DNA from: Marinimicrobium sp.
Lineage (GTDB): Bacteria; Pseudomonadota; Gammaproteobacteria; Pseudomonadales; Cellvibrionaceae
Assembly: GCA_027322215.1 (NCBI GenBank)
Contig: DAHVRW010000002.1
Coordinates: 1 to 42,047, forward strand
Direction: 5' to 3'
DNA length: 42,047 nt
Position 1 is the stretch's first letter. Each line of letters begins with the position of its first letter. The notes beneath the pieces were generated by a model. That model was given only the letters and a program-made list of their open reading frames with translations. It did no database searches and had not been told where the DNA came from. Of the stretch, positions 12,141 through 21,934 are shown one piece after another. A program made the translations under genes and the position numbers.

Positions 12141-14477
12141 TTAACGGGCGCGGATCGTAACGAACTTGCTGTACAGCCCATCGGTATCGAAGGCAGCAAT
12201 TTCAAACTCGTAACTCCCCAACAGCTCCGTAAACGTATGGCGGGTCGCTTTGGGGCCAATGGTTATCGTTCGGTATTGGCTTTCATTGGTGCGACGGTAA
12301 CGGATTTCGTAGCCGCCAATTTCACTCAACTCCAGATACTTGCCATCTTCCCGCGCGCTAGGCGGTGTCCACTCCAGCGTCAAACCGATTGCTGGATCCG
12401 GTGCAGCGATGGTCGAGAGCACCAGCGTGGTGCTGAACGCTGACCAGTTACCCGCCGCATCACCCGCGCGGATGGTGTAGCGATAAGTGGTCCCGGCACG
12501 CAAACCCGAATCGGTAAAGGTACGTGTGCTGCCCGAAACCGTCGTCAAATGGTTTCCGTCCCGATGAATGGTGTAACGGGTGACACCCACATCATCGCTG
12601 GAGGCGTTCCAGCGCAAGCTGATCTGATTTTGACCTACATCGCTGGCACGGAAGCTACCGGGTACAGTCGGGGCGGTTACATCGCCGCTTACGGGCGGAT
12701 TGTCAGGGTCGGTCGGCTTGTCGAGGCCGTCATCCGAATCACTACCAGAGCCATCACCGGGACCTGGTCTGGCACCGTCGTCGTAACCGTCCGGGTCCAG
12801 TGGGTCGTAACCAAATACGTCCATTTGCCATAAGGAGTAGCCCCACGAAGTCCCGCGCTCCAGGCCCTGCATGCGAACATAGCGTCCTGTGGCGTTCAAG
12901 TTAATGTTGTCCACGCCGCCATTGCCATTGATTGTGGTATGGACGGTGCGCCAGTTACGGCCATCGCTCGAAACCCGAATCTGGTAGTCTTTTCCGTAAG
13001 CCGCTTCCCAGTGCAGGCGCACACCGGTGAGGTTATACAGCCCACCCAAGTCCACATCCAGCCACTGATTGTCGGTGCGATCACTGGCCCAACGGGTGGT
13101 CGAATCGCCGTCCACCGCGTTGCTGGCACGCAGCTGCTGAGACTCTGAACTCGAAGCACTAACGGGCTTTTGCTGAGCAAGGTTGGCCTGCGCCGGCGTG
13201 AACGGGGTACCGTGCACTTCAAACTCCCACAGCGAATAACCCCATTGGGTGCCACGCTCATGGCCTTGCATGCGGACGTAGCGACCCACGCCGTTCAGGT
13301 TGATTTGGTCAACGCCGCCCGTGCCGTTCGTTTCGCTGTGCACGGTGCTCCAGGTGTTGCCGTCGGCAGATACCTGAATGTCATAAACCTGACCGTACGC
13401 CGCCTCCCAATGCAGGGTGACACCGCTGAGGCTGTATAACTCGCCCAAATCAATAGCAATCCACTGGGCATCGGTGCGCTCACTGGCCCAGCGGCTATTC
13501 ATATCGCCGTCGGTGACCGTCTGCTCGCTGCGGCTGGTGCCCTCGCGACTGGATGCGGTAACGGTCTTGCCCTGGGCAATGTTGTCACTGGTCACGATCG
13601 CTGGGCTACCCTGCACGTCGAACGCCCACAGAGAGTAACCCCACGCGGTGCCGCGCTCCTGACCGTTCATACGCACGTAACGCCCTGTGCCGTCCACGCT
13701 CAACGTATCAACACCTCCGGTGCCGTTGGTCACTGAGCGCAGGGTTCGCCAGTTTTCTCCGTCATCGGAAATTTGAATTTGATAGGCGCGCCCATAGGCC
13801 GCTTCCCAATGCAGGGTCACTTCACTTACGTGGAAGTTGCCTCCCAGATCCACCGCGATCCAGTTGCGGTCAGAGTAGCTACTGCTCCAGCGTGTCGATA
13901 AATTGTTATCAAACGCGTGGCTCGCGGGGTGACCATTCTCGGCGCTAGAGCTGGTGGCCGTTTTGCCCGCAGCAATGCTGTCGGTACTGACGAAAACGGG
14001 CCCACCATGCACTTCAAACTCCCACAGGGAGTAGCCGTAACGAGTACCCCGTTCAATACCATTCATGCGCACATGGCGTGCTGTCGCATCAATATCGAGC
14101 GAATCGACTCCGCCGCGACCGTTGGTAACGGTACGCACCGTGGTCCAGTTGTCGCCATCATTGGACACCTGGATTTGATAGTGGCGCGCGTAGGCGGCCT
14201 CCCAATGCAAGGTGACGCCACTGAGGGCATACACATCGCCAAGGTCAATCGCAATCCAGTTATTGTCCTGTAAAGAGCTCGCCCATCGGCTGGCCATATT
14301 GCCGTCGACGGCGTTGCGCGCACCCATGCTGGCGGATTCGCGGGAGGAGCTGGTGGCATCTTTGCCCATTGCGAGATTGGTCGAAGCGTGGCCGGCGATA
14401 GACCATAATGCTAAAGAAAGGAAAACCATAAGTGCGGAGAGGTAACGGGTACTTCCGCGCAGGTCGATAGACTTCAT
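12141..14477 (-). CDS. Secreted protein with four discoidin (F5/8 type C) modules and FN3 domains
   Basis: A 778-aa exported protein without a catalytic domain that I can recognise. From the ATG at 14477 a signal peptide ends near AGHAS (residue 32). Four tandem F5/8 type C (CBM32-like) modules follow at roughly 33-160, 165-295, 300-430 and 435-565. Each has the pattern SRWAS.-W..(I/V)DLG-LHWEAAYG-VRM.G.ERGT-GYSLWEF. An acidic Gly/Asp/Pro linker (about 570-610) leads to an FN3 domain (about 615-700) and a second FN3-like domain at the C-terminus. Such modules bind sugars on polysaccharides or cell surfaces. The track's longer start adds 33 residues before the signal peptide and is rejected; GGGGA precedes the ATG. 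It may be a glycan-binding adhesin or scaffold. The gene is monocistronic with its own terminator. Confidence 0.85.
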   Translation of the reverse strand: MKSIDLRGSTRYLSALMVFLSLALWSIAGHASTNLAMGKDATSSSRESASMGARNAVDGNMASRWASSLQDNNWIAIDLGDVYALSGVTLHWEAAYARHYQIQVSNDGDNWTTVRTVTNGRGGVDSLDIDATARHVRMNGIERGTRYGYSLWEFEVHGGPVFVSTDSIAAGKTATSSSAENGHPASHAFDNNLSTRWSSSYSDRNWIAVDLGGNFHVSEVTLHWEAAYGRAYQIQISDDGENWRTLRSVTNGTGGVDTLSVDGTGRYVRMNGQERGTAWGYSLWAFDVQGSPAIVTSDNIAQGKTVTASSREGTSRSEQTVTDGDMNSRWASERTDAQWIAIDLGELYSLSGVTLHWEAAYGQVYDIQVSADGNTWSTVHSETNGTGGVDQINLNGVGRYVRMQGHERGTQWGYSLWEFEVHGTPFTPAQANLAQQKPVSASSSESQQLRASNAVDGDSTTRWASDRTDNQWLDVDLGGLYNLTGVRLHWEAAYGKDYQIRVSSDGRNWRTVHTTINGNGGVDNINLNATGRYVRMQGLERGTSWGYSLWQMDVFGYDPLDPDGYDDGARPGPGDGSGSDSDDGLDKPTDPDNPPVSGDVTAPTVPGSFRASDVGQNQISLRWNASSDDVGVTRYTIHRDGNHLTTVSGSTRTFTDSGLRAGTTYRYTIRAGDAAGNWSAFSTTLVLSTIAAPDPAIGLTLEWTPPSAREDGKYLELSEIGGYEIRYRRTNESQYRTITIGPKATRHTFTELLGSYEFEIAAFDTDGLYSKFVTIRAR

Positions 14478-14719
14478 TCTTGCGTCCCCAGAAATTATCG
14501 ATAGCTCGCTAATTTCTGCAGATGCACGGACTTTGTCAGCGAACGCGCGTGACGGATCAGAGTGAAGCGGACACACCCCCTTCAGCGCTGATACGCCAAC
14601 AGAAACTAGCGGCGGTAAAAAAATTAACGAGCGTGTGGTTCACTGAGCTATTCATAAAAGGGATTCCATCCGACCGTTGAAATAGCGTTGACGAAAAGTC
14701 TTTGCTGCGAACACTGCCT

Positions 14720-17067: not shown

Positions 17068-17139
17068 CATAAAAGGCCATCCGGTATCCCGGCATAGGGC
17101 GCCGAGCAATTCGTGCGCGTACTCACCGCCGGTACTATG

Positions 17140-17167
17140 TTATGGTAAGTAGCCCTTATGGTAAGTA
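17140..17167 (+). repeat. 12-bp direct repeat upstream of the BCCT operon
   Basis: TTATGGTAAGTA occurs exactly twice, at 17140-17151 and 17156-17167, a period of 16 bases. It ends 65 bases before the BCCT start codon, in the only non-coding space before the operon, so it may be a regulator-binding site. No family consensus was recognised. Confidence 0.55.
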
Positions 17168-17231
17168 ACCAGCGATAAAAATTCATTGCCCGGAGGCACA
17201 GGGGTCGGCCTGTCTCTCCTAAGGAATCCTC

Positions 17232-19358
17232 ATGTCTGACGCAACACCTTCTAATCAGAAGCCGAGCGCCGGCTCGACTATTCTCCTTCCAGTATTTCTG
17301 CCCGCCGTCATTGTTATAGCGCTATTAGTGATCGGCACCATCAGCAACCCGACGCTGGCCGCTGAAGCCTTCAGCGCAACTCTCGCGTACATCATCAGCA
17401 CCTTTGGCTGGTTCTACATGTTGTCGGTAGCGTTTTTCCTGGTATTTATTGTCAGTATCGCGCTCACCAAATGGGGCCACATCAAGCTCGGGCCAGACCA
17501 TGCCGACCCTCAGTACAGCTTTCCTGCCTGGTTTGCGATGCTGTTTTCGGCCGGCTACGGCATTGCATTGCTGTTTTTTGGGGTGGCGGAACCTGTGTTG
17601 CACTTTGCCGCGCCTCCAGCGGGCGCTGCTGAGACGGTAGGCTCGGCCCGGCAAGCCATGCAAATCGCATTTTTCCATTGGGGTTTTCACATCTGGGCGA
17701 TTTACGGGTTAGTAGGGCTAGTGCTGGCTTACTTCGCGTTTCGCCACGGGCTGCCGCTGTCGGTGCGCTCGGCGCTGTATCCGCTGATCGGCGAAAAAAT
17801 CTACGGGCCGACTGGCCATGCCGTCGATGTGTTCGCCATTCTCGGCACTATGTTTGGTATCGCCACCACGCTGGGGCTGTCGGTCGCGCAAATTAACGCC
17901 GGCATGAATTATTTGTGGCCCTCCATTGCCGTGGGCCCAACCGTTCAAGTTACGACGATTGCCGTCATTACCGCGTTGACTACGGTGTCGGTTGTGGCGG
18001 GGATGGACAAGGGCATCAAGCGCCTGTCTCTTCTGAACATGACATTGGCAATTTCGCTAATGGTATTTGTGTTCGCGGTAGGCCCGACAATCCATATCTT
18101 GGAAACCTTCCTGCAAAATACGGGTAGCTATCTCAACAACATTGTGGAGCGCACGTTTAACCTTCAGGCGTACGAACGCTCAGACTGGATTGGCAACTGG
18201 ACGCTGTTTATTTTTGGCTGGACGATAGCGTGGGCCCCCTTTGTCGGGTTGTTTATTGCCAAAATTAGCCGCGGCCGCACCATTCGCCAATTTGTGATCG
18301 GTGTCATGCTGGTCCCGTCGATGTTCACCTTCTTGTGGTTTTCCGTCTTCGGTGACACCGCTTTGCATTTGATCATGCACGAGGGCTATACGAGCCTGAT
18401 CGGAGAGGTGCAAGCCGACCACGCCATCGCTTTGTTCAAGCTCCTGGAGGCGTTACCTCTGACGTCAATCGTCTCGTTTATTACGGTGCTGTTGATTGTC
18501 ACCTTCTTCGTTACCTCGGCGGATTCGGGAGCCCTTGTGATTGATTCCCTGGCCTCTGGCGGAGTCCTGCATACACCGGCGTGGCAGCGGTTATTCTGGG
18601 CTTGCTCGGCCGGTCTCGTGGCGGCAACGCTACTGGTAGCCGGTGGACTGAAAGCATTGCAAACCATGACTCTTGTCAGCGCATTGCCCTTCGCCATTAT
18701 CATGATCATTGCCGCTCTAGGTATGTGGCGAGCACTGGTCATTGAAGGGCACCACCATCGCAGCCTAAAGACAGGCGTACCGCAACGCCTGACCGGCACA
18801 TCGGGCCGCAGTTTGTGGCGACAGCGGCTGGCCGGGCTGGTCAGCTTCCCGCAAAAAGACGAAGTGTGGGAGTTTATGGCTTCCACCGTTAGCAAGGCCA
18901 TGCACCGGGTCGAGCGCGAGCTGAAAAAACAGGATTGGGATGCGCAGGTTCACACCGATGAAGAAAACGACCGGCTGTGGCTGGAGGTGATCAAAGAGGA
19001 GCATGTGGACTTCGTTTACGAAATTCGCTGCAAAGAACACGCCCTGCCGGATTACGCTTTCCCCGAAATGCCGCGCGGCGATGCAACTGACACGGTCTAT
19101 TATCGAGCGGAAGTATTCTTACGCCGCGGCGGCCAATCGTACGATATTTTTGGGTTCGATCAGCAGGATATTATTACCGATATCCTGGACCAGTTTGAAA
19201 AGCATCTGCACTTTCTGGATATATCGCCCGGCGTCTTGCCCTGGCGTATGGAAGAGCACGACGACATGCTCGCAACGCCCCCCGAGCCGCCGGAAGAGGA
19301 GCCCAGTGTAAAAGACCCTCAAAACGACGAGCCGGGAACGCCTCCGCGAGACCCGTAA
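17232..19358 (+). CDS. BCCT family transporter with long C-terminal domain
   Basis: A 708-aa inner-membrane secondary transporter of the betaine/choline/carnitine family, BetT-like in length. About 12 helices span residues 18-500, with GYGIALLFFGVAEP as the Gly-rich TM3, HWGFHIWAIY as TM4 and FVGLFIAKISRGRTIRQF after TM8. The TM4 aromatic residues W150, W155 and Y158 are kept. TM8 reads WTLFIFGWTIAW: by alignment with the usual FYWGWWxxW, two of the aromatic-box Trp are replaced (F328 and T331) while W330 and W334 remain, so the substrate may differ from glycine betaine. A cytoplasmic C-terminal domain of about 150-200 residues resembles that of BetT. AAGGA precedes the ATG. It heads a compact operon with an outer-membrane protein and a periplasmic binding protein. 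Confidence 0.93.
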   Translation: MSDATPSNQKPSAGSTILLPVFLPAVIVIALLVIGTISNPTLAAEAFSATLAYIISTFGWFYMLSVAFFLVFIVSIALTKWGHIKLGPDHADPQYSFPAWFAMLFSAGYGIALLFFGVAEPVLHFAAPPAGAAETVGSARQAMQIAFFHWGFHIWAIYGLVGLVLAYFAFRHGLPLSVRSALYPLIGEKIYGPTGHAVDVFAILGTMFGIATTLGLSVAQINAGMNYLWPSIAVGPTVQVTTIAVITALTTVSVVAGMDKGIKRLSLLNMTLAISLMVFVFAVGPTIHILETFLQNTGSYLNNIVERTFNLQAYERSDWIGNWTLFIFGWTIAWAPFVGLFIAKISRGRTIRQFVIGVMLVPSMFTFLWFSVFGDTALHLIMHEGYTSLIGEVQADHAIALFKLLEALPLTSIVSFITVLLIVTFFVTSADSGALVIDSLASGGVLHTPAWQRLFWACSAGLVAATLLVAGGLKALQTMTLVSALPFAIIMIIAALGMWRALVIEGHHHRSLKTGVPQRLTGTSGRSLWRQRLAGLVSFPQKDEVWEFMASTVSKAMHRVERELKKQDWDAQVHTDEENDRLWLEVIKEEHVDFVYEIRCKEHALPDYAFPEMPRGDATDTVYYRAEVFLRRGGQSYDIFGFDQQDIITDILDQFEKHLHFLDISPGVLPWRMEEHDDMLATPPEPPEEEPSVKDPQNDEPGTPPRDP

Positions 19359-19375
19359 AACAAGAGGAGGACGCA

Positions 19376-20662
19376 GTGCACCACGCAACCGGTCGAGAGT
19401 GCCGCTTCTGGTGGGCTGGCCTGGCGCTGCTCACGCCGTTATCAGCACTGGCAGAGCCGTCGTTGGACGAGCTGCTGAGAGAGGTTGAACGGCTCAAGGA
19501 ACGGGTTGAACAGCTTGAACGTGAGCGGGTCAGACCGGTACCGGCGCAAGAACTTAATCTGGGGCTCTCCATTTCCGGAACTGAACGGGCAGTCGAAGCG
19601 CCCGTGGAGGCCAAACCCACAGCGCCGGAAGTCCATGTGGGCGGCGCATTACGCTTCAACTTTGTTCATCGCGATTTTGTGGAGGCATCCGACGGCAAGC
19701 GCGGCGAAAGCGGTCTGGACGTCTTTCGGCTGAACGTCGAAGGGGCAATCGACAACATTCTGGTTTCCGCCGAATACCGTTTCTACTCCTACATGCACAC
19801 ACTGCACCACGGCTGGATTGGCTACCAGTTCGACGACAACAGCCAATTGCAGTTTGGTGTCCACCGCGTGCCGTTCGGCCTGCAACCCTACCCCGCCCAT
19901 AACGCCTGGTTCGGCGTTCCCTATTACACAGGGTTGGGTGACGATTACGACATGGGCATCAAGTACCAGCGTGAGGACGGACCCTGGCAATGGCAGCTGG
20001 CGTTTTACAAAAACGAAGAGCTGAACGACTCGACGAGCGCGGAGCGGTACTCGTTTGATCTGGTGCGGTCGGGCGATCAGCAGAATGAGGAAACTAACCA
20101 ATTCAATGGCCGCGGCGCCTTCACCTTCGGCTTAGGCACCGGCTGTGAAACCGAAACAGGCGCCTCACTGCAAGCCGGCGAGCTTTACAATCATATCACC
20201 GGTCGCCGTGGCGACCACTGGGCCGCAGCCGCGCATTTGGATAGCCGCTGTGGGCGTTGGCATGTTCAGCTATCGGGCATTCGCTACAACTACAGTCCCG
20301 CCAACCCGGAAGGTATGAATAACGACACCGTGCAGGTGGGCGCATTCGCCGGCACTTATGACGTTGCCAGCCGCGCCGATGTGTTAGTCGCCAACCTTGC
20401 CTATAACGTGCCGTCGCCGTGGAAACACATCGACAGCATCACCTGCTACAACGACTACTCCCAATTATTCAAAGACGACGCCCATTCGCGGGATTCGCGC
20501 ATTAACACCCTGGGTTGTGCCGTAGGTATGGGGCCCATATTCACTTATGTGGATTATATCCTCGCTAACAACATGGCCTATTTCGCCGAAGGCTCCATGG
20601 CCCAGGGCGGCGACAATGAATGGCACAGCCGATTTAATGTCAATCTGGGTTTCTACTGGTGA
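19376..20662 (+). CDS. Outer-membrane porin-like beta-barrel protein
   Basis: A 428-aa exported protein starting at GTG with GGAGG six bases upstream. A signal peptide ends near LSALA. A short coiled coil (LDELLREVERLKERVEQLE) follows, as in trimeric porins with a periplasmic N-terminal helix. The remainder alternates like a beta barrel, begins VHVGGALRFNFVHRDF and ends in an aromatic residue (FNVNLGFYW), the usual outer-membrane assembly signal. It resembles the OprO/OprP-like porin superfamily, but I cannot assign a substrate. Four cysteines lie within the barrel region, which is unusual for a porin and could allow disulfides. It is 17 bases after the BCCT gene and overlaps the binding-protein gene by four bases. 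Confidence 0.78.
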   Translation: MHHATGRECRFWWAGLALLTPLSALAEPSLDELLREVERLKERVEQLERERVRPVPAQELNLGLSISGTERAVEAPVEAKPTAPEVHVGGALRFNFVHRDFVEASDGKRGESGLDVFRLNVEGAIDNILVSAEYRFYSYMHTLHHGWIGYQFDDNSQLQFGVHRVPFGLQPYPAHNAWFGVPYYTGLGDDYDMGIKYQREDGPWQWQLAFYKNEELNDSTSAERYSFDLVRSGDQQNEETNQFNGRGAFTFGLGTGCETETGASLQAGELYNHITGRRGDHWAAAAHLDSRCGRWHVQLSGIRYNYSPANPEGMNNDTVQVGAFAGTYDVASRADVLVANLAYNVPSPWKHIDSITCYNDYSQLFKDDAHSRDSRINTLGCAVGMGPIFTYVDYILANNMAYFAEGSMAQGGDNEWHSRFNVNLGFYW

Positions 20663-21756
20663 ACATGATGAAACGATACCGCTCCAGGCTGTTGCTCTTA
20701 CTCTGCATGCTCGGTGCCCACAGCGCCCACGCGCAGCAGGAACTGAACGTCGTCTCCTGGGATGGAGCCTACGTCAAAAGTCAGATTCTGGGTTTTATTC
20801 GCCCCTATGAAGAGCACGCCAACATCCGGGTGAATGTGCTGCAATATACCGGCGGCATCGACGAGATCCGGCGGCAGGTGCGGGCCTGGAACGTGCAATG
20901 GGACGTGGTGGACCTGGAACTGTTCGATGCCATTCGCGCTTGCAACGAAGGGCTGTTAGAACACATTGACCCCAAAACGCTGCCCGATGCACCCGATGGC
21001 ACAACGGCGCAAGATGATTTTATTCCGGTCAGTCTGATGCCCTGCGGCGTAGGCAACGTCGTCGGCTCCACCGTGGTCAGCTACCGGCAGGATAAATTCA
21101 AAGAACCGCCAGGCCGCCTGGAAGATTTTTTTGATCTGAAAAAGTACCCCGGCCGTCGCGGCCTGCGGCGCAGCCCACAAGGCAACCTGGAATGGGCGTT
21201 AATCGCCGACGGCGTCGCCACAGAAGACGTGTACAAAGTGCTCTCCACCGAGGAAGGGCTCGACCGCGCGTTTCGGGTATTAAACCGCATCAAGCCCTAC
21301 ATAGAATGGTGGCGCACCGGCGAAGAAGCCGTACGGCTATTGGAAACCAACGCCGTTGCCATGTCATCGGCGTACAGCGGCCGGTTGGACGACGCCGTCC
21401 AGCGCGGTGAGCCGCTGGCCATTGTCTGGGATCATCAAGTGTGGTTTTACGATGTGTGGGCCATTCCCAAAAATGGCCGTCGTACCGAGCAGGCGATGGA
21501 TTTTGTGCGTTACGCCACTACCACCCAAAGCCTCGCGGCCCAAGCCCGCTACATTCCCTATGGCCCGGTTCGCCAATCCTCCATGGCGCTATTGGAGCCC
21601 GAACTGCGCGAGCGCTTGCCCACTTCCCGAAAAAATCTGCGTACCGCCATTGAACTGAACGCCGGGTGGTGGTCCGAAAACCTGGACCGCATTGCTCCAC
21701 GCTTTGAGCGCTGGGCCGACCGACCCGTTATGGTGCCACGCAAGCTGCCCCGTTAG
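20659..21756 (+). CDS. Periplasmic solute-binding protein, PotD/PotF-like (COG0687)
   Basis: A 365-aa exported binding protein. A signal peptide ends at AHSAHA. The mature protein begins LNVVSWDGAYVKSQ, the opening strand typical of spermidine/putrescine-type ABC binding proteins, and later shows TGGIDEIRRQV, WDVVDLE, DFFDLKKYPGRRGLR and HQVWFYDVWAIPKNGRR, all usual for that family. The GTG at 20659 overlaps the porin stop; in-frame ATGs at 20665 and 20668 are alternatives with no clear ribosome site, so coupling to the porin gene is likely. No ABC permease or ATPase gene lies in or next to the operon. The ligand may be a polyamine, amino-acid derivative or quaternary amine. Confidence 0.88.
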   Translation: MNMMKRYRSRLLLLLCMLGAHSAHAQQELNVVSWDGAYVKSQILGFIRPYEEHANIRVNVLQYTGGIDEIRRQVRAWNVQWDVVDLELFDAIRACNEGLLEHIDPKTLPDAPDGTTAQDDFIPVSLMPCGVGNVVGSTVVSYRQDKFKEPPGRLEDFFDLKKYPGRRGLRRSPQGNLEWALIADGVATEDVYKVLSTEEGLDRAFRVLNRIKPYIEWWRTGEEAVRLLETNAVAMSSAYSGRLDDAVQRGEPLAIVWDHQVWFYDVWAIPKNGRRTEQAMDFVRYATTTQSLAAQARYIPYGPVRQSSMALLEPELRERLPTSRKNLRTAIELNAGWWSENLDRIAPRFERWADRPVMVPRKLPR

Positions 21757-21934
21757 TTCGTGGTTGCAGGATCGGTTACCCACGCTGCCAGCCTGGTTGT
21801 TCAGCCAGGGTCCAGTGGCTGCGCGACTACAAACTGTTGAGTGTCCGTCACCAAACTCTCTTCTGTGCGACGCTAACCCGGGCTAATCATTGGGTGTTCT
21901 TTTTTGTGCGTCTGTCGTTCAGCGGGGCGCACGG

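Follow-up and report, generated by a model that had tools for sequence, protein, structure and literature searches.

We describe here a compact set of three genes on the forward strand of a 42,047-nucleotide stretch of DNA from Marinimicrobium sp. (contig DAHVRW010000002.1); the whole of this stretch is termed the window. The genes encode, in this order, a carrier of the betaine/carnitine/choline transporter (BCCT) family, an outer-membrane porin and a periplasmic solute-binding protein (SBP), and we refer to the arrangement as the trio. The trio is a real, conserved module and not a product of chance. Furthermore, we propose, with a probability of roughly 0.55, that it acts as one transport module, distributed over three compartments, for a zwitterionic nitrogen compound. 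We base this proposal upon the conserved gene order, the lack of a cognate ATP-binding cassette (ABC) permease, the retained chemistry of the SBP ligand site, the co-divergence of the three proteins, and sequence signatures that are private to them.

The substrate that we envisage would combine a carboxylate with an amine or ammonium group, in the manner of γ-aminobutyric acid (GABA), an omega-amino acid or a betaine. It would pass the outer membrane through the porin and be caught in the periplasm by the SBP, which would have been released from its ancestral ABC partners; the BCCT would then import it at the expense of an ion gradient. The loaded SBP might raise the local concentration of the compound for, or dock on, either the BCCT or the porin. 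We infer that all three proteins act on the same compound. The idea of one component per compartment had been put forward in a preliminary description of this DNA and, with the three-gene unit found to be conserved, we judge it to be the best reading.

The BCCT gene (17232-19358; 708 amino acids from an ATG start; PF02028) is separated by 17 bases from the porin gene (19376-20662; 428 amino acids, GTG start), and the stop codon of the latter is overlapped by 4 bases by the GTG start of the SBP gene (20659-21756; 365 amino acids, SBP_bac_8), for which there is an alternative ATG at 20668. On re-checking, the coordinates, strand, gap and overlap that had first been reported all proved correct, and the original view of a compact unit without an ABC permease or ATPase is also borne out: neither was found among the scanned genes that flank the trio in the window, and the examined flanks of all 16 trios contain no ABC-ATPase motif pair.

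Those 16 trios emerged from a search of genomes for the three-gene neighbourhood, which recovered the same order in 15 loci in addition to the window (L018-L024, L031, L032, L149-L151, L222, L223 and L225); a contig scan with a single protein query gave four loci only. The preliminary description had allowed that the grouping might be absent from related genomes, and it is present in them. The BCCT and porin genes are at most 24 bases apart, or overlap, in 15 of the 16 loci. Measured against the window, the first nine relatives show identities of 75-81% (BCCT), 58-70% (porin) and 60-77% (SBP). The flanks vary, and no flanking gene is common to all trios, though close genomes have some in common; we found no shared regulator or catabolic gene in these flanks. 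The high-scoring porin is present in 11 of 144 genomes of the window's family, and one genome of the same genus is without it, so the module is patchily distributed. A separate locus (L034, 8001-8547) contains what appears to be a decayed trio-like SBP gene, broken or frameshifted, that is convergent with a canonical BCCT gene.

The SBP matches SBP_bac_8 in Pfam (150 bits), has a Sec-type signal sequence, and is modelled by AlphaFold2 with a mean predicted local distance difference test (pLDDT) score of 94. Its closest structural match by Foldseek is the SAR11 PotD in complex with GABA (8jv1; 33% identity); next come MotA and AgtB, both of which bind opines, and Atu4243, which binds GABA. True PotD structures are only 15-18% identical to it. 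The NCBIfam PotD model returns a mere 19.9 bits against a cut-off of 582. Together, the profile score and the structure search rule out a polyamine-binding PotD identity. The initial label of 'PotD-like' thus holds at the level of the superfamily; it fails for PotD proper, the nearest relatives being GABA and opine binders.

Insight into the ligand site comes from the GABA-binding protein Pf622, in which the site is formed by W9, T13, F100, Y102 (Phe in the parent), W202, R205, D228 and Y264 (PMC12999171). When these positions are transferred to the trio SBPs by alignment, the equivalents of W9, R205, D228 and Y264 (Trp, Arg, Asp and Tyr) are kept in 16/16, a set that could plausibly serve as the minimal grip for a carboxylate plus an amine. 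The equivalents of T13, F100, F102 and W202 are not kept, being replaced by Tyr, Val/Ile, Gly/Ser and Tyr, respectively; at T13, F100 and W202 the trio SBPs are much like their ABC-linked relatives, whereas the change of F102 to Gly/Ser (Gly in 13, Ser in 3) is specific to the trio, with Trp/Tyr occupying this position in 21/22 ABC-linked proteins. Another distinguishing feature is the position of G10, which is Asp in every trio SBP, as opposed to Gly in 22/22 ABC-linked SBPs and in 4/4 porin-linked SBPs without a BCCT. These two substitutions suggest that the trio pocket is probably larger and more acidic than those of its relatives. From the site as a whole, we infer a ligand of a GABA-like or betaine-like class. 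The trio SBPs share both fold and zwitterion-gripping residues with the GABA and opine binders (SAR11 PotD 8jv1, Atu4243, Pf622, PA0222, AgtB and MotA). They differ from these in that Asp replaces Gly10 and Gly/Ser replaces the aromatic residue at Phe102, in an extra C-terminal tail, and in the lack of ABC partner genes.

The closest relatives of the SBP outside its clade (about 40% identity) mostly reside in ABC operons with an ATPase and two permeases, a setting from which an ABC origin of the SBP appears likely. (One SBP of this ABC-linked group, at L084 6262-7455, has a twin-arginine-like signal, RRDFLALG.) A cognate permease model, built from the larger permease of the relatives' ABC operons, scored 625-720 bits in five ABC control genomes; in 12 of the 14 trio genomes it gave at most 43 bits or no match. 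The window's genome contains five binding-protein-dependent permease domains; they fall into three clusters which, on our reading of their sequences, resemble importers of phosphate, iron and peptides. With neither a flanking permease or ATPase nor, in these 12 genomes, a cognate permease, the trio SBP does not qualify as part of an ABC importer. The preliminary description had left room for a partner ABC permease elsewhere in the genome; none was found in most trio genomes. Nor does the unit qualify as a tripartite ATP-independent periplasmic (TRAP) or tripartite tricarboxylate transporter (TTT) system, its only membrane carrier being the BCCT; this result covers the unit itself, no search for TRAP or TTT genes having been made beyond it in the genome.

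The porin has only a weak and partial match to Porin_O_P (27.9 bits against a gathering threshold of 20.9, over profile positions 69-189 of 370), and a PDB sequence search with it gave no match. Its AlphaFold2 model (pLDDT 88) is a barrel of about 16 strands plus an N-terminal helix, for which the fold matches are OmpT, Omp32, OprP and DcaP, at 11-13% identity. The N-terminal segment is helical and coiled-coil-like; it is ruled out as an SBP-specific trait, as several SBP-less porins have a similar segment. On the other hand, every SBP-linked member of the porin family retains four cysteines, and two of them, C257 and C292, occur in 20/20 SBP-linked porins versus 0/24 other members. The trio porins form one clade in the porin tree, beside the other SBP-linked porins.

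While the barrel is like that of the general and specific porins OprP/OprO, Omp32 and DcaP, the window porin's family is set apart by its adjacency to BCCT genes. Among the 24 loci in which the family porin has no SBP, a BCCT gene is directly adjacent in 12 (L129, L130, L132, L133, L138, L140, L141, L145, L148, L152, L153 and L155; 11 of them on the same strand, with either gene first) and lies within 5 kb in four more. These BCCTs belong to several clades, all of them other than that of the trio BCCTs. That such adjacency recurs, across several clades of BCCT, speaks strongly for the porin family serving substrates of the BCCT type, and it is likely that porin and BCCT are partners. Elsewhere, a family porin adjoins a proV-type betaine/proline ATPase (L131), and in L144 (5896-9827) another adjoins an 837-residue class III CoA-transferase, at a distance of 4 kb from a BCCT; in both size and family this enzyme is like DddD, which cleaves dimethylsulfoniopropionate.

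The bond between porin and SBP is tighter. Each of the 20 SBPs of the clade is encoded directly behind a porin of this family: 16 with a BCCT, two with a GGDEF protein and two (L067 and L224) with neither. The SBP of the window ends in RPVMVPRKLPR, and this tail, as RPVMVPxxLPR, is found in 20/20 porin-linked SBPs and 0/22 ABC-linked SBPs. The tail and the C257/C292 pair are signatures of a porin-SBP partnership, and we think it very likely that the two proteins are partners. The preliminary description had gone further in suggesting a binding-protein-assisted BCCT uptake system. This suggestion gains from the conservation of the unit and from the lack of a cognate permease in most trio genomes; it is weakened in that the constant partner of the SBP is the porin and not the BCCT.

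The two loci in which a GGDEF protein, a porin and an SBP follow one another without a BCCT (L065, 5126-8834; L066, 6813-10683) perhaps represent a sensor of the same class of compound. They also lend themselves to the main rival explanation, namely that the SBP does not deliver its ligand but has a reporting or regulatory role in the periplasm, signalling the ligand to a membrane partner: a diguanylate cyclase at those loci, the porin or the BCCT in the trio. The trio BCCT does possess a long cytoplasmic C-terminal part, and a C-terminal part of this kind regulates BetT. A sensory function also has a precedent in Vibrio cholerae, where the PotD-like protein NspS signals to MbaA (PMC8967002, PMC8079147); NspS is a member of the PotD superfamily without ABC partners, for which the GGDEF-porin-SBP loci offer a comparison, although NspS-MbaA differs from the trio in being a signalling system with a polyamine ligand and neither porin nor BCCT. 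We nevertheless consider a sensory role for the trio SBP to be unlikely: a separate GGDEF-motif gene occurs in the examined flanks of only one of the 16 trios (L150), on the opposite strand, the trios have no flanking gene in common, the trio-specific changes of the SBP fall in its ligand site, and the SBP-less porins of the family pair with carriers at half of their loci.

A second lineage of SBPs has a different association with BCCTs. In L075 (6144-9160, genome G360) and L277 (6120-8888, G909) the SBP gene precedes, by 30 bases, a BCCT gene that belongs to another clade (with the motif FYWGWW), and there is no porin; the flanks of these two loci are quite different. In two further genomes (L275 and L276) an SBP of this lineage lies at a contig end. 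The second-lineage SBPs do not have Gly at the G10 position, they have a conserved tail of their own that ends in GTVR, and they no longer possess the Arg and Tyr of the GABA grip; a ligand other than that of the trio SBPs is therefore probable. An independent origin of the trio and of these porin-less pairings is uncertain, since in the SBP tree both lineages fall on the side that is not ABC-linked.

The carrier itself is an unequivocal member of the BCCT family (PF02028 in Pfam: 611 bits, residues 21-502, profile positions 1-482 of 485). It resembles BetT and BetP in its full-length BCCT sequence, in the aromatic box of transmembrane helix (TM) 4 (HWGFHIWAIY, kept in the window BCCT on comparison of the pockets), and in a BetT-like cytoplasmic C-terminal part of about 200 residues. 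The resemblance is incomplete: with the NCBIfam BetT model the score of 654.8 bits is below the cut-off of 695 and so outside the BetT subfamily, the third Gly of the TM3 glycine stretch is replaced by Ala, and a porin and an SBP are neighbours. The betaine aromatic box (Trp/Trp/Tyr of TM4 plus Trp374 of TM8) is preserved in TM4 only. TM8 of the carrier reads FIFGWTIAWAPF, and the position equivalent to Trp374 in BetP is Thr in 16/16 trio BCCTs. TM3 of the window BCCT is GYGIALLFFGVAEP, and in the pocket comparison the trio BCCTs carry both FIFGWTIAWAPF and GYGIA. The BCCTs that adjoin SBP-less porins, in contrast, retain Trp and the betaine pocket (FYWGWWIAWSPF and similar).

A broad clade of BCCTs within the order (L226-L250), most of which are solo, shares this replacement of Trp374 by Thr. 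In the tree the trio BCCTs fall inside this Thr-pocket clade, and four solo members nest among them. We thus ruled out a joint origin of the altered pocket and the SBP; the pocket does not owe its existence to the SBP. In one member of the clade (L228, 4183-7578) the BCCT gene is followed, without a gap, by a gene for a protein of the M24/creatinase-N peptidase family, a possible hint as to substrate.

Across the 16 trios the pairwise distances of the proteins are correlated (porin-BCCT, r = 0.77; porin-SBP, 0.73; BCCT-SBP, 0.52; permutation p = 0.0002 for each pair). The agreement between BCCT and SBP trees, a test of which had been suggested, is therefore seen inasmuch as the distances co-vary, at a level below that of either pair that involves the porin. 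For an SBP-BCCT link, the porin-less pairs of L075 and L277 carry more weight than these correlations.

Several points weigh against a single transport module. The SBP trails a porin in four loci that lack a BCCT, and for that reason its link to the BCCT is looser than its link to the porin. Since the Thr-pocket clade is mostly solo, and has solo members nested among the trio BCCTs, the carrier does not in general need an SBP. A search for a docking face, in which trio BCCTs were compared with close solo members, yielded nothing convincing: most of the differences are in the cytoplasmic C-terminal part, where the nested solo members have many of them, and with almost no residue unique to the trio BCCTs no docking face could be picked out. 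Moreover, vertical descent of an operon would produce co-divergence just as cooperation would. Finally, according to a study of Pseudomonas aeruginosa, SBP genes of this family need not work with an adjacent (sensor) gene (PMC11113362).

Marginally less likely than a sensory role is an explanation through co-regulation only, by which the porin and the BCCT would serve one osmolyte, the SBP would bind a different ligand or serve another transporter, and the operon would reflect a common response to stress or habitat. The ABC origin of the SBP family would fit this account, as would the function of the BCCT clade without an SBP in most genomes and the fact that BCCT-SBP co-divergence is the weakest of the three; it is opposed by the missing cognate permease in 12 of 14 trio genomes, by the pairing of SBPs with two BCCT clades, and by the constancy of the set, which holds exactly these three genes. 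We regard it as highly improbable that the SBP is an orphan that feeds an ABC transporter whose genes lie far away in the genome: two trio genomes do yield matches to the permease model (G482, 160 bits, an ordinary PotB-like permease; G548, a weaker 83 bits) and the window's genome is a draft (2.54 Mb in 310 contigs, 87% complete), but neither G484 nor G583, trio genomes that are each 99% complete, gives a match at 1e-5, and G005, G036 and G059 (complete or near-complete) have only generic permease matches of at most 43 bits.

Within the transport-module proposal, direct transfer of ligand from the SBP to the BCCT is a tentative element, to which we give a little below even odds. A shade more tentative is the generalisation that the trio exemplifies a further class of SBP-dependent secondary transport, in which a LeuT-fold BCCT is fed by a GABA-type SBP and served by a dedicated porin, and which may have arisen more than once, as the trio and as the porin-less SBP-BCCT lineages. 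The known SBP-dependent families listed in a 2018 review are ABC, TRAP and TTT only (PMC5812351), and this accords with the earlier naming of TRAP and TTT as the known secondary systems. Both are secondary carriers fed by an SBP, as we propose for the trio; the trio differs in its single BCCT protein, which is unrelated to their membrane subunits, and in the lack of a DctM/TctA-type gene in the unit. The earlier statement that BCCTs are not normally tied to an SBP also agrees with the literature, in that our search, which mostly did not extend to subscription journals, found neither a published SBP-dependent BCCT system nor a betaine-specific porin.

An SBP from this family has been seen next to a secondary carrier before. 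PA0222 of P. aeruginosa is described as a GABA-specific SBP_bac_8 protein in the operon PA0218-PA0222 with the carrier PA0220 (PMC6829864); as in the trio, a binder of this type is thus next to a secondary carrier, which in this case belongs to the amino acid-polyamine-organocation (APC) family and not to the BCCTs. In a later report, PA0222 and PA0602 are classed as orphans that lie outside transporter operons (PMC11113362), and the accessible portions of these two papers contain no claim that PA0222 and PA0220 cooperate.

As for the surroundings of the trio, the intergenic stretch 5' of the BCCT gene (17068-17231, forward strand) presumably carries the promoter; a scan of it gave no promoter-like match, and neither promoter scans nor an Rfam scan gave anything above chance. 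A candidate terminator-like hairpin, succeeded by a T-rich tail, is present 3' of the SBP gene (21876-21895, forward strand); we rate it as weak because the number of hairpins in the region equals the shuffled expectation. The 17068-17231 stretch is preceded by yigZ, which is absent from the trio flanks in relatives and is not part of the trio unit there. The window genes scanned beside the trio encode a cation diffusion facilitator (CDF) efflux protein, YigZ and one protein without a family assignment. Further away, on the reverse strand (12141-14576), the window encodes an 811-residue protein, probably secreted and carbohydrate-binding, in which four F5/8 type C (discoidin) domains accompany a fibronectin type III domain.

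The comparison has yielded a family of BCCT-linked porins that is of interest in its own right. If our proposal for the trio is true, it would mean that a single-protein carrier of the LeuT fold can be fed by an SBP; it would also explain how BCCTs gain access to dilute substrates, and it would provide betaine-like compounds with a dedicated entry through the outer membrane.

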